Shown: piece after piece, positions 27,117 to 32,682 of the stretch | Layout: the number at the start of each line of letters is the position of its first letter | Numbering within the stretch: the first letter of the stretch is position 1 | Assembly: GCF_001891165.1 (NCBI RefSeq) | Contig: NZ_LKKW01000014.1 | Location: 1-34,535, forward strand | Reading direction: 5' to 3' | Length of the DNA: 34,535 nucleotides | Source: Streptobacillus ratti | GTDB taxonomy: Bacteria; Fusobacteriota; Fusobacteriia; Fusobacteriales; Leptotrichiaceae | Position numbers and translations under genes: made by a program | The notes under the pieces: generated by a model | What the model saw: only the letters and a program-made list of their open reading frames with translations | Told to the model about the DNA's origin: nothing | The model's database searches: none

Positions 27117-28883
27117 TTACCAACTTCTTCCCCCTCCTCCTCCAAATCCACCACCTGATGAACCTGAAGATGAAAATCCGCCTGAAAAACTAGACTTTCC
27201 TCCATAACTTTTACTACTATTAGTAGCCTTTTCTATACTTCTATTTATTATCTTATCATAATATCTTCTATTAACAATATGTGAATAATATACATACTCA
27301 TGTATTCTTTCAACATCTAAAGATAATCTTGAAATTACATTATCTAACATTCTTAAATATTGATTTTCTAATCCAAATGCAATGGCAAATGGAAGAATCT
27401 GTTTAAAATATGTTATTACTTCTTCCTCTGTTACAAAATGTTTAAGTTTTTCTACTTCTGTTTTTTGTAAAAATTTTTCAAAACCTTTTGCTTTTGGATA
27501 TTCTTTTTCATAATCTTTAGTATATCTTTTAACTGTTGTAGCATTCATAAAAGTTATTAAAAACATTACTCCTAATACTACTAATGTTGGCATTTCTGAA
27601 AGCAATAATTCTCCAACAAACATTGCTATAAGACCTATTACAGAAAATGCGAGTACAATTAAAATTACATAATACTTAAATACCGGTATTTCATATTCAC
27701 TAGAGTATTTTTTATCAAAATATTTTTTTAAATTTTCTTCAACTTCTGCTATATATTTTTTTGATTTAAATATATCATTTTTATTAAGTATAATCTTATT
27801 TAAAAATATTTCTTCTTCTTTTGACAGTTTTTCTTGATTACATTCATATTTATACATATCAACATAATATTCTTTTTCAACATAATCATTAAAATCTTTT
27901 CTTTTCTGTTTAACATTATTTCCAAATTTAACAACATATTCTTCATCAAAATTATGATTAGGATTTTTTTCTCTTAATTTAATAATTCCTTTTTGTATTA
28001 GCATAAATAACACTACTATAAAGTTAGAGGAATATGTATTTCTTTTTACCATTCTTTTAGCTATTAAAGCTGAAATATCTGGAACAAGATATTCTACCAT
28101 TATTGCCTTATTAAACTTGTTTCTATTTTTAAATCTAAGTATAAATAAATTAAGTAATATAATAGGGAAAATAGCTAAAAAAGTAATTAATACTAATGGG
28201 TAAGCTTTTATTCTGTTATACCATAAATCAAAGCTTGAATATTCAAAACTATCTGAATTTAGTAAAAACGATAATCCCTCTCCTGGATTACTTACCGTAG
28301 TAGTTTTAATTTCATAACCATCTTCTAATTCTCTTATTTGATAATCCTTATTAACTTCTCCAACATAACCTGTAAAGACATCTATATTTCCTTTAATTCC
28401 TCTAATAGTTAATTTAAATTTTTCTATAGGAATTTTCCAATAATTTCCTAAAGCATTAAAATATATTTGGTTAATGTCCCCTTCGCTTCTTATACTGTTA
28501 TACACCTTATATTTAATTTCATAATTAATATCTTTATTAGCTGGTAAGTATACATCACTTTTGCCTAACCTATATTCCATAACATTTTCTTGTATTTCAC
28601 TATATAGTCCTACTTCATTTTCAGAATCTAAATATCTTACCTTGAAATCTTCTATTTTAATCCTATCTTCAAATTTTAAATATGAGCCATTGTCATATAC
28701 ATAAGGGATTATTCTATAAATTCCTCTTGTTATTTCAACTTTTGTAATATACGTTATTCTTTCTGTAATGTCTAAAACTCCATTTGGTTTAACTAATATA
28801 TCCATTTCAAAATTAGATATATTTTCAAAAGAAAAAGTAAAAACCGAAATAAAAATAAGGAATAAAAATAACATTTTTTTCAT
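27117..28883 (-). CDS. DUF2207 membrane protein, LemA partner
   Basis: A 588-residue protein with signal peptide (1 to about 19), an extracytoplasmic beta-rich domain (about 20-230) with VKPNGVLDITERITY and TRGIYRIIPY, one helix (about 235-255), a cytoplasmic part, a helical pair (about 405-450) and a C-terminal tail of Ser and Gly (KSSFSGGFSSSGSSGGGF, then G5-RSW). This order is that of DUF2207 proteins, often beside lemA as here. Their role is not established; an envelope function is assumed. It starts one base after the lemA stop (TAATATG), so the two are coupled. Last gene of the radC unit. Confidence 0.9.
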   Translation of the reverse strand: MKKMLFLFLIFISVFTFSFENISNFEMDILVKPNGVLDITERITYITKVEITRGIYRIIPYVYDNGSYLKFEDRIKIEDFKVRYLDSENEVGLYSEIQENVMEYRLGKSDVYLPANKDINYEIKYKVYNSIRSEGDINQIYFNALGNYWKIPIEKFKLTIRGIKGNIDVFTGYVGEVNKDYQIRELEDGYEIKTTTVSNPGEGLSFLLNSDSFEYSSFDLWYNRIKAYPLVLITFLAIFPIILLNLFILRFKNRNKFNKAIMVEYLVPDISALIAKRMVKRNTYSSNFIVVLFMLIQKGIIKLREKNPNHNFDEEYVVKFGNNVKQKRKDFNDYVEKEYYVDMYKYECNQEKLSKEEEIFLNKIILNKNDIFKSKKYIAEVEENLKKYFDKKYSSEYEIPVFKYYVILIVLAFSVIGLIAMFVGELLLSEMPTLVVLGVMFLITFMNATTVKRYTKDYEKEYPKAKGFEKFLQKTEVEKLKHFVTEEEVITYFKQILPFAIAFGLENQYLRMLDNVISRLSLDVERIHEYVYYSHIVNRRYYDKIINRSIEKATNSSKSYGGKSSFSGGFSSSGSSGGGFGGGGGRSW

Positions 28884-28884
28884 A

Positions 28885-29448
28885 TTAAAAACTCACTTTT
28901 GGTGCATTTTTAGCTTCAACATCTTCTTTAAAGTATTCAGCATTTCTAAATTTAAATAAACCTGCAAGTAATACTGTAGGAAATTTTCTAATAAAGCTAT
29001 TCAACTCTCCAACAGTAGCATTATAGTATCTTCTTGCCCCCTCTATTTGATTTTCAATCTCAGTTAATGATTTTTGTAATTCTAAAAAGCTAACATTTGC
29101 TTTTAAATCTGGATATGATTCACTTAAAGCCATAATAGATTTTAAAGTTTTTGTTAATTCATTTTCCATTTTTCTAATTTCTTCTAAATTATTAATATCA
29201 TTTAAATCTAATTTAAGCATTCTACTTCTTGCTTCTATAACACCTTGTAATGTTTCATTTTCATGTTTAGCATATCCTTTAACTGTTTCAACTAAATTAG
29301 GTATTAAATCTAATCTTTTTTGTAAAAAAGTTCCAATGTTACTAAAAGCTGTTTGATTTTCTGTATCTAAACTAATATATCTATTATACACTCCTATAGC
29401 CCATAAAACTATTAAAATTACCAATCCTAAAATAATTAACAATACCAT
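28885..29448 (-). CDS. lemA: LemA family protein
   Basis: A 187-residue protein with an N-terminal membrane helix (about 2-20) and a helical domain: AIGVYNRYISLDTENQTAFS, LQKRLDLIPNLVETVKGYAKHE, LKANVSFLELQKSLTEIENQ, IEGARRYYNATVGELNSFIR and FPTVLLAGLFKFRNAEYF are the classic LemA sequence. LemA proteins are anchored with the helical body on one side of the membrane; function is poorly known. The ATG at 29448 has GGGAG 8 bases upstream and lies 13 bases after the GTPase stop; an in-frame ATG at 29475 lacks a site. Confidence 0.95.
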   Translation of the reverse strand: MVLLIILGLVILIVLWAIGVYNRYISLDTENQTAFSNIGTFLQKRLDLIPNLVETVKGYAKHENETLQGVIEARSRMLKLDLNDINNLEEIRKMENELTKTLKSIMALSESYPDLKANVSFLELQKSLTEIENQIEGARRYYNATVGELNSFIRKFPTVLLAGLFKFRNAEYFKEDVEAKNAPKVSF

Positions 29449-29461
29449 TTTTATCACTCCC

Positions 29462-30037
29462 TTATAATTTATCAATAAAATCTAATATTTCAACCGTTCC
29501 AATATTCTTCAATGATGAATGAAAAAATACATCTTCATTATTAAATTCTAATTTTTTCTTAATTTCCTTTAACTGTTTAAATTTTTCATTATTTGATAAT
29601 TTATCACATTTAGTAAATACTATATAGTATTCAATGTTATAGTGTTCTAAATATTCAAGCATTTCTATATCTTCTCCACTTGGAACACGCCTAATATCTA
29701 ATAAAACAAAAACAACTTTTTTTCTTTCAGAATTTAAATATTCTGATATAATATTACCCCAATTTTTCTTAACATTTGCTGGTACTTTAGCAAATCCATA
29801 ACCTGGAAGATCAACAAAATATCTATCCTTATTTACTAAAAAGAAATTTACAAGTTGTGTTCTACCTGGTGTTTTACTTGTCCTAGCTAAATTTTTTCTT
29901 TTTACTATAGTATTTATTAAAGATGATTTTCCTACATTAGATCTACCCACAAATGCAATTTCAGTATTATTCATTTTTTCAGGATAATCAGCAAGTTTAA
30001 TACAACTTCTTGAATAATCAGCACTCTTTATTTCCAT
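29462..30037 (-). CDS. yihA: Ribosome-biogenesis GTP-binding protein YihA/YsxC (EngB)
   Basis: A 191-residue GTPase needed for large-subunit assembly. G1 GRSNVGKSSLIN (about 31-42), G2 region SKTPGRTQLVNFF, G3 DLPGYGFAKVP and G4 FTKCDKLS are intact, with the usual short N-terminal strand ending NNTEIAFV. GAGGT stands 6 bases before the ATG, inside the coaE reading frame; the two genes overlap by 20 bases, so translation is probably linked. Confidence 0.96.
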   Translation of the reverse strand: MEIKSADYSRSCIKLADYPEKMNNTEIAFVGRSNVGKSSLINTIVKRKNLARTSKTPGRTQLVNFFLVNKDRYFVDLPGYGFAKVPANVKKNWGNIISEYLNSERKKVVFVLLDIRRVPSGEDIEMLEYLEHYNIEYYIVFTKCDKLSNNEKFKQLKEIKKKLEFNNEDVFFHSSLKNIGTVEILDFIDKL

Positions 30038-30609: not shown

Positions 30610-30885
30610 CTACTCCTTTAGAAAAATACATAACCACTTACAATCAGCACTAGTATATGTTACCTTGTGTTCTGTATTTTTAGGGATTAAAAATCCTGAA
30701 TTTTTATCTAATAATATTTCTTTATCTTCTATTAAAAGTATTGCAGAACCATCAAGAATATATACATACTCATCTATATCAGAAATCATGAAATCTGTTA
30801 TATTAGAATTTGATGTTATTCTTTCAACTTTAATCTTATCATCATTAATTAAAACTTCTACTAATTCTCCATACTCATTAATCAT
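30610..30885 (-). CDS. Small cupin-domain protein
   Basis: A 91-residue single-domain beta-barrel. The cupin pattern is DEYVYILDGSAILLIEDKE (about 38-56), LLDKNSGFLIPKNTEHKV (about 58-75), then WLCIFLKE. The His pair of the first cupin motif is replaced by D-I-D-E; a single His (about 73) remains in the second motif, so a standard metal site is doubtful. It may bind a small ligand rather than catalyse. Its start overlaps the stop of the methyltransferase gene by 8 bases. Confidence 0.8.
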   Translation of the reverse strand: MINEYGELVEVLINDDKIKVERITSNSNITDFMISDIDEYVYILDGSAILLIEDKEILLDKNSGFLIPKNTEHKVTYTSADCKWLCIFLKE

Positions 30886-31489
30886 TTTTAGCCTTTCTTA
30901 AAAGATAACTTATGAAATTTTTTTTACCTCTAAAATGATTTTTAAAATTTGTTATAATAAATCTAGTGTCTTTCCTTAATTCCTCATCTCTTTCAATAGG
31001 TAATATTAAAAAAAAGTATCCTCTATCATCTAATATATTATTTACAACATCAAGTAATTCAGAAACTTTTAAACAAACTTCAAATTTTGAAATTTTCATA
31101 ATTTCATCTTGTGGCATATATCCACTATTAGTCTTATAAAACGGTGGGTTTGATATTATATATTTAAATTTAAATGGTAAATTAAAATCCTTTATATCCA
31201 TATTATATGCTTTAACCGATATATTATTTAAAGAAATATTAGAAACTAGTATATCATATACACTTTTTTGTATCTCAACTGCATGAAATTCTGTAAAATT
31301 TTTATGTCTATAAAGCATAAATGTAAGAGTACCTATACCAGCACCTATATCAAGCATATTTCCAACTTCATCTATATTAACTAGGTTTTCTTTAATAAAT
31401 TCAATTAAATCCAAAGCATCTGTAGTAATATTTAATGCACCTTGACCATAATTTAATTTTAAATCCACACTTTCTAAGTAGTGTGTCAT
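30878..31489 (-). CDS. TrmN6-like tRNA1(Val) adenine-N6 methyltransferase
   Basis: A 203-residue SAM-dependent methyltransferase. The glycine-rich SAM loop reads MLDIGAGIGTLTFML (about 44-58), the acidic loop HAVEIQKSVYDIL, and the catalytic NPPFYKTNSGY (about 115-125) is the NPPY-type motif with the F-Y-x-T-x-x-G extension typical of TrmN6 (YfiC). ITTDALDLIEFI corresponds to the family's 'tDavLLa.f'. The start is uncertain: the ATG at 31489 lies one base after the previous stop (TAATATG) and is preferred; an ATG at 31513 with a weak GGG site would add eight residues and overlap. Action on tRNA is known for the family, not shown here. Confidence 0.85.
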   Translation of the reverse strand: MTHYLESVDLKLNYGQGALNITTDALDLIEFIKENLVNIDEVGNMLDIGAGIGTLTFMLYRHKNFTEFHAVEIQKSVYDILVSNISLNNISVKAYNMDIKDFNLPFKFKYIISNPPFYKTNSGYMPQDEIMKISKFEVCLKVSELLDVVNNILDDRGYFFLILPIERDEELRKDTRFIITNFKNHFRGKKNFISYLLRKAKND

Positions 31490-31490
31490 A

Positions 31491-32006
31491 TTACCAATAT
31501 ATTTCACGTCCATATTTCCCAAAAGCATTAAGAATTCTACCCTCATCATTATACTTTATTTGATAAAATTCTACTCTTCTATTAAATGCTTTGTTTACTT
31601 CTTTAACTAAATCTCTAAAATCTAATCTTCCCTCGGCAGTGAAATAAAATATTAATTTTTCTCCACCGAACATATATTCCCCTATAACTAAATTCATTTC
31701 AGGTAAAACTCTTTTTACTATTTCTTTACAAATAAAATAGGCTTCTCTAGCTTTTTCATCTAAAATATCTAATTCCTTAACTTCTTCATCGTTTAATTTT
31801 CTTTTCACTTTTCTTATTTTTAAATCATCATCTTCTGATTCAAAATTAACATTATTTAGTCTATTTTCACCTAATACTACACCTATTTGATCTCCTCTAA
31901 TAGTTTCAACTATTACATAATCCCCTTTCTTATATTCATTAACATTTTCAATATAAAAAGGGTAAACTTTTTTTGTTTTTCTAAATCTAATATTAACAAT
32001 CTTCAT
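31491..32006 (-). CDS. PSP1/RicT-like protein, truncated, all cluster cysteines gone
   Basis: A 171-residue protein aligning with the first two thirds of RicT (YaaT) proteins: IVNIRFRKTKKVYPFYIEN, KGDYVIVETIRGDQIGVVLG (about 36-55), MNLVIGEYMFGGEKLIFYFT and RLDFRDLVKEVNKAFNRRVE. In RicT a GPCGRPLCC-like box and a second cysteine box follow, which bind an Fe-S cluster with partners RicA and RicF. Here the chain reads GKYGREIYW and stops, so the three cysteines are Tyr, Tyr and Trp and the last 100 or so residues are absent. The stop abuts the start of the next gene, leaving no remnant. GAGGT lies 5 bases before the ATG at 32006. Confidence 0.88.
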   Translation of the reverse strand: MKIVNIRFRKTKKVYPFYIENVNEYKKGDYVIVETIRGDQIGVVLGENRLNNVNFESEDDDLKIRKVKRKLNDEEVKELDILDEKAREAYFICKEIVKRVLPEMNLVIGEYMFGGEKLIFYFTAEGRLDFRDLVKEVNKAFNRRVEFYQIKYNDEGRILNAFGKYGREIYW

Positions 32007-32019
32007 TTTAACCTCTTTC

Positions 32020-32628
32020 TTAAATTTGTCCATTTTCTAAAAAACTATAATACCCCTTATTTGAGATAATAATATGATCGGACAACCTTACATCTATTAA
32101 TTTTAAAACATCAATTATCTTTTTTGTTAAATATCTATCATCATTAGATGGTTCTAAATTCCCACTAGGATGATTATGTACTACAATAATAGATTTTGCA
32201 TTATACTTCAATATATTTTTTACTATTTCTCTAACATATACTATACTTTTATCTATAGTTCCATAAAACATATTTTCATCTTTAATCAAAGCATTCTTAG
32301 TGTTAAAATACAACACTTTAAACACTTCTCTTTCCATATCTACATATTGAAATTTTAAATATTTTACTAAATCTTCAAAACAATTAATCTTTTTTTCTTC
32401 TCTAAAACATTCATTAAATAATACATGGTTATATATCAAATTAATATTTTTAATAATTCCCATAGTTTTTTTAGATAAAATATTCATATTTTCAATTACC
32501 TTAAAATCTTCTCTTAAAATATTAGAAATACTCCCATATTTTTCAATAATTTCATTAGCTTGAATTTTTGCTGATTTTCTATTTTCAACTAAACTAATCA
32601 AACTTTCAAGTAAATCAAAATCACTCAC
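32020..32628 (-). CDS. radC: RadC family JAB/MPN-domain protein
   Basis: A 202-residue protein: an N-terminal helix-hairpin-helix-like part (SDFDLLESLISLVE, YGSISNILRED) and a C-terminal MPN domain with the metalloprotease-like site VVHNHPSGNLEPSNDDRYLT (about 151-170) and VRLSDHIIISNKGYYSF. RadC was once tied to DNA repair, but its action is unsettled. The GTG at 32628 is chosen: GGGGG lies 4 bases upstream, and the promoter -10 at 32654-32659 puts the transcript start near 32647, which excludes the ATG at 32649. The protein then begins directly at the conserved LSD-ELL region, lacking the usual short leading segment. First gene of an eight-gene unit. Confidence 0.88.
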   Translation of the reverse strand: MSDFDLLESLISLVENRKSAKIQANEIIEKYGSISNILREDFKVIENMNILSKKTMGIIKNINLIYNHVLFNECFREEKKINCFEDLVKYLKFQYVDMEREVFKVLYFNTKNALIKDENMFYGTIDKSIVYVREIVKNILKYNAKSIIVVHNHPSGNLEPSNDDRYLTKKIIDVLKLIDVRLSDHIIISNKGYYSFLENGQI

Positions 32629-32653
32629 TTTTCCCCCTTGTGCTACCATACAT

Positions 32654-32682
32654 ATTTTAACATAAACCATACATAAAATCAA
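32654..32682 (-). promoter_or_regulatory. Promoter of the radC unit
   Basis: On the minus strand TTGATT (32677-32682), 17-bp spacer ending TGT, TAAAAT (32654-32659), an extended -10. It is the only convincing promoter seen for the run of genes down to 27117. Confidence 0.65.

Follow-up and report, generated by a model that had tools for sequence, protein, structure and literature searches.

A RicT paralogue without iron-sulfur cysteine boxes, conserved in Leptotrichiaceae and sole RicT of Streptobacillus ratti

The region considered here, referred to as the window, is a stretch of 34,535 nucleotides from Streptobacillus ratti (Fusobacteriota; Leptotrichiaceae; contig NZ_LKKW01000014.1). Near its end lies a gene for a short RicT-like protein, directly downstream of a RadC-family gene and followed by a gene for a small methyltransferase (Table 1). 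The hallmark of RicT is its Fe-S clusters. In Bacillus subtilis, where RicT (YaaT) is a member of the RicA-RicF-RicT complex assisting RNase Y, it cannot function without them. Adjacent genes for LemA and a DUF2207 membrane protein can be found in the same gene run as ricT (27117-29475, minus strand).

Table 1. Features of the ricT locus in the window
Feature	Position	Strand	Basis
TrmN-like small methyltransferase, next gene	30878..31489	-	Pfam MTS, 43 bits; top NCBIfam model is TrmN at 54.7 bits, short of its cut-off
Site where relatives hold the canonical long RicT; here gone	31490..31491	-	gene-order comparison
Short RicT without Cys boxes, 171 aa: N-terminal beta domain, KH-like PSP1 domain, aromatic tail	31491..32006	-	ORF and start-site reading, Pfam, NCBIfam
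Conserved C-terminal tail GKYGREIYW-stop replacing Cys box 1	31491..31520	-	tail conserved in 32/32 genomes
PSP1 domain (PF04468 match)	31557..31811	-	Pfam match; predicted alpha/beta, mostly confident
RadC-family gene, directly upstream	32020..32682	-	Pfam RadC 145 bits

Read from 31520 to 31491, the end of the gene is GGG AAA TAT GGA CGT GAA ATA TAT TGG TAA, i.e., G-K-Y-G-R-E-I-Y-W-stop. When aligned to full-length RicTs, the CxxxxCC positions of the first Cys box are taken by Tyr165, Tyr170 and Trp171 (171-aa numbering), the codons of which are each one base away from a Cys codon, and the chain finishes inside this box, leaving the protein with neither the second Cys box nor the C-terminal domain. 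The initial annotation, made from the letters alone, had described precisely this replacement of three cysteines by aromatic residues and this truncation, and both the reading of the tail and the alignment bear it out. It had also placed the gene at 31491-32006, and these limits hold: a Shine-Dalgarno-like AGAGG can be found only before the ATG at 32006 and none before the ATG at 32033 chosen by the ORF tool, so that 32006 is taken as the start, and an equivalent start is used in most relatives. Likewise, the next gene does start at once, as had been noticed, the probable ATG of the methyltransferase (31489) lying one base past the TAA of ricT.

Regarding family membership, the Pfam PSP1 model (PF04468) matches the short RicT with 83 bits against a cut-off of 27, over model positions 2-86 of 86, and the NCBIfam model RicT_YaaT_fam (NF041131) with 101.6 bits against a cut-off of 70, but over model positions 1-137 of 213 only. 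Iron-sulfur RicT is defined by six cysteines arranged as CX4CCX30CX4CC, four of them ligating cluster 1 (PMC6751060). None of the six is present in any short form (0/6 in 32/32), and the region that lies C-terminal to the Cys boxes in iron-sulfur RicT is lacking. A sequence search of the PDB with the short RicT returned chance-level matches only. In the genome to which the window belongs (1.43 Mb, 99.98% complete), this gene is the sole one with a PSP1 domain, and a PSP1 search found no second full-length RicT there; the reading as a decaying paralogue next to a full-length RicT, which had been put forward as a possible refutation, can thus be rejected for this genome.

Among the neighbouring genes, radC can be found beside the short ricT in 31 of the 32 loci. 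At one locus (L046, genome G076), the radC gene upstream of an intact short ricT is split into two ORFs, likely by a frameshift. As for the methyltransferase, the idea that it inherited the start codon of a lost gene was dropped, since a better start sits just after the ricT stop codon. In B. subtilis too, ricT and the methyltransferase gene yabB lie near one another. The two genes have been reported as grouped (PMC3814617).

The short form is by no means a peculiarity of one assembly. A phylum-wide search gave a PSP1 match in 94 of 98 Fusobacteriota genomes; no PSP1 protein was detected in G001, a reduced Fusobacteriota genome of the same class (0.8 Mb, 91% complete). The short form was found in 32 of 33 Leptotrichiaceae genomes, the lone exception being an 82%-complete draft, and the comparison of PSP1 proteins across the phylum that the initial annotation had proposed thereby assigns it to this family, the other families having the long form only. 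All 32 short forms, from 11 genera and with complete chromosomes among them, end in FG[KR]YG[KR]E[ILM][YF]W-stop. Since this tail, varying by conservative changes only, recurs in all of them, it is neither a product of chance nor a sequencing error at 31491-31520, an objection that had been raised beforehand and that fails, as does assembly error, on the shared end in so many genomes. Between close pairs of short forms, dN/dS is about 0.01-0.13, indicating strong purifying selection. Among full-length RicTs, taken from Fusobacteriota, from Bacillota and from a small number of further phyla, the three cysteines of box 1 and all six cysteines are kept in 126 of 126. In many loci with the short form only, the tail is overlapped by no conserved gene, and its conservation must therefore act on the protein; the proposal that it is kept merely through an overlapping gene is rejected for most genomes, and in the window the methyltransferase begins only after the stop codon. 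Judged by frame length only, no short form can be found outside Fusobacteriota among 143 Bacillota and 25 Omnitrophota genomes with PSP1, the single 192-aa frame in the Bacillota set being cut at a contig edge. Literature searches on fusobacterial RicT and on proteins with a PSP1 domain retrieved nothing relevant.

The origin of the short form can be read from its surroundings in related genomes. In five genera, a canonical six-Cys RicT (297-312 aa, with both Cys boxes) lies directly downstream of the short gene, and the two genes share exactly 38 bp in each of the eight tandem genomes (L037, L038, L052, L055, L056, L058, L059 and L061). In the tandem loci inspected, no ATG further along can be found close to the start of the long gene, which, together with the overlap, suggests translational coupling. 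The gene order is radC-short-long-methyltransferase in the eight tandem genomes and radC-short-methyltransferase in the window; six genera, that of the window included, are without the long gene, and tblastn detected no remnant of it downstream of the short gene in the short-only genomes. Other Fusobacteriota families have the long RicT alone, and loss of the short copy was not seen in the Leptotrichiaceae genomes compared. With Bacillota and further phyla as the root of the tree, the short forms make up one clade (100/100) within Fusobacteriota. A topology uniting them with the long forms of the family is not rejected (AU p 0.60, lnL 1.9 higher); owing to long branches the exact attachment of the short clade is unsure, and the tandem position is the stronger evidence for duplication. 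Because the short gene adjoins and overlaps the canonical one in five genera, it is a tandem duplicate already present in the ancestor of Leptotrichiaceae. On the RNase Y tree, a single clade of short-only genera is rejected (AU p 0.028) and the long copy has to be lost two to three times; the short-only genera not being one clade, the canonical copy must have been lost independently at least twice. Sequence comparison thus shows that RicT was duplicated in tandem in the family ancestor, that the upstream copy shed every Cys ligand together with the Cys-rich segment and the Tudor-like C-terminal domain and fixed a new aromatic tail, and that the downstream canonical copy was dropped later, on at least two occasions, leaving the short copy as sole RicT.

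The changes in the short protein go further than the loss of the cysteines. The KLxFYF...RxDFR core is retained, and about 10 residues that are near-invariant in the 126 long RicTs are each swapped for a single different residue that is fixed across the 32 short forms (E40Q, A71L, L102P, L137V, A138N, I145V, L147F, R148Y, G151K and C165Y, from long to short). Most of these lie at positions 137-165, the stretch running up to the cluster box, and further positions are replaced by small sets of residues (G160 by S/N, R153 by N/S). That these positions were rebuilt and then frozen points to a new role for this face of the protein and argues against decay. For the short RicT (mean pLDDT 83.5), AlphaFold predicts confident N-terminal beta and PSP1 alpha/beta modules, with a disordered tail (pLDDT 41), so that an aromatic patch is not visible in the model. 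The model of a long RicT (locus L055) additionally shows a Cys segment of low confidence and, C-terminally, a Tudor-like domain. With Foldseek, the PSP1 domain gives weak matches to the KH-type RNA-binding folds of RbfA, uS3, NusA and RimP (E 0.04 or more).

With regard to the partners that had been asked about, RNase Y is present in 33 of the 33 family genomes searched (644 bits in that of S. ratti), and RicA/RicF-type proteins (YmcA, YlbF; Com_YlbF, PF06133) were detected in none of 98 Fusobacteriota genomes, S. ratti included, the B. subtilis and Lactococcus lactis controls being positive. In B. subtilis, C167 of RicT shares a cluster with RicA and RicF. The long RicTs of Fusobacteriota keep all six cysteines, including the equivalent of C167, despite the lack of any RicA/RicF-type protein in the 98 genomes. 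As these proteins go undetected throughout the phylum, its RicT appears to dispense, in the long as in the short form, with the loading by RicAF known from B. subtilis (PMC10470536). Nor was the cluster abandoned for want of assembly: SufB/D can be found in 33 of 33 family genomes, 32 of which also have a scaffold of the NifU/SufU type, and lost Fe-S assembly is accordingly rejected as the reason for its disappearance.

Taken together, these observations are best accounted for, with moderate confidence, by a stable RicT paralogue free of Fe-S clusters, in which the N-terminal and KH-like PSP1 modules would retain a cluster-independent activity and an aromatic tail may occupy the former cluster site. 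A settled RicT-like protein without the cluster is what had been proposed initially, and the uniform tails, the low dN/dS and its position as the only PSP1 gene here and in six genera support it. The cluster-independent activity would most likely be that of a cleavage adaptor that binds RNA, RNase Y or both. Tail residues Phe162, Tyr165, Tyr/Phe170 and Trp171, together with the fixed Phe147 and Tyr148, could make up an aromatic patch in the place of the cluster, either filling the site or serving as a docking surface; any redox- or iron-responsive control of RicT would then be gone and its scaffold role would remain. The short RicT probably still acts in RNA processing linked to RNase Y, its steps with RNA and with RNase Y being presumed, and its part in this processing may be a changed one. 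In B. subtilis, mutants in the cluster ligands of RicT show abolished or impaired maturation of the gapA mRNA and a much reduced association with RNase Y (PMC6751060, PMC10470536). A cluster-free RicT may for that reason not do the same job, and the functional claim is held at no more than moderate confidence: either the fixed replacements compensate for the cluster, or the short RicT does a different, cluster-free part of the work. In a bolder version, to which we give only tentative credence, it would be a fully functional, constitutive specificity factor of RNase Y in which the aromatic tail replaces the Fe-S cluster, a redox- or iron-sensing switch having been made fixed by duplication and by repeated loss of the sensing copy.

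The same evidence bears on other explanations. The short copy could have been neofunctionalised into a KH-like RNA-binding protein with no tie left to RNase Y, active perhaps in the biology of ribosomes or tRNA, next to the TrmN-like methyltransferase. The structural matches to RbfA, uS3, NusA and RimP, the rebuilding of the PSP1 face adjoining the cluster by fixed replacements and the radC and methyltransferase neighbours would fit such a role, which we regard as possible though rather unlikely; the neighbours are in fact shared by the canonical RicT of the tandem genomes, and ricT and yabB are close in B. subtilis too. Moreover, six genera have no RicT but the short form, and all of their genomes searched still encode RNase Y, so that the short form likely takes care of the ancestral role, at least as far as this is indispensable. 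It appears improbable that the short RicT evolved instead as a subunit of a short-long RicT heterodimer, with the aromatic tail docking on the long partner and perhaps substituting for the missing RicA/RicF. The 38-bp overlap and the constant gene order in the eight tandem genomes, which suggest translational coupling, are compatible with such a complex, as are the failure to detect RicA/RicF-type proteins in the phylum and the nature of the tail as a conserved yet unstructured end resembling a peptide ligand. The tail is equally conserved in genomes without the long partner, and docking on it cannot therefore be the only use of the tail.

The idea that the tail tyrosines or a single conserved cysteine bind some other metal or cofactor has very little to recommend it. 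Cys93 (171-aa numbering) is indeed the one cysteine conserved in 32 of 32 short forms, but it is common to most long RicTs, where it stands outside the six cluster cysteines; it sits in the long helix, well away from the tail along the sequence, and no His/Cys cluster exists. Least probable of all, to the point of being negligible, is a decaying paralogue or assembly artefact without function: the protein is truncated relative to every other RicT compared, but the shared end in 32 genomes of 11 genera, the low dN/dS, the single RicT of this genome and the conserved start, tail and neighbours speak against it.

The cluster-free RicT described above amounts to a natural experiment, one family having split off such a protein and then, at least twice, come to depend on it as its sole RicT. 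This experiment separates cluster-dependent from cluster-independent RicT work, suggests that part of this work is independent of the cluster, and makes available to biochemists and structural biologists a RicT core that is small and indifferent to oxygen. For the branch without Cys boxes (e.g., the gene in the window and the short form of L055), which includes human-associated species, the name attached to NF041131, 'regulatory iron-sulfur-containing complex subunit RicT', is misleading.

Compared with known systems, the likeness of the PSP1 domain to the KH-type folds of RbfA, uS3, NusA and RimP is a weak one of fold, with no sequence similarity shown and a Foldseek E of 0.04 or worse. With B. 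subtilis RicT, the short RicT shares homologous N-terminal and PSP1 modules and the KLxFYF...RxDFR core, and RNase Y is encoded in its genome as well. It differs in being devoid of the ligands of cluster 1 (C161, C166, C198 and C203) and of cluster 2 (C167), in lacking the C-terminal domain and in having no detectable RicA/RicF partners. Unlike the short form, the long RicT of Leptotrichiaceae and other Fusobacteriota carries the six cysteines as CX4CC...CX4CC, the Cys-rich segment and the Tudor-like C-terminal domain. The canonical long RicT of the family (e.g., in L055, 310 aa) is its sister gene in the tandem pair, with the same radC and methyltransferase neighbours.
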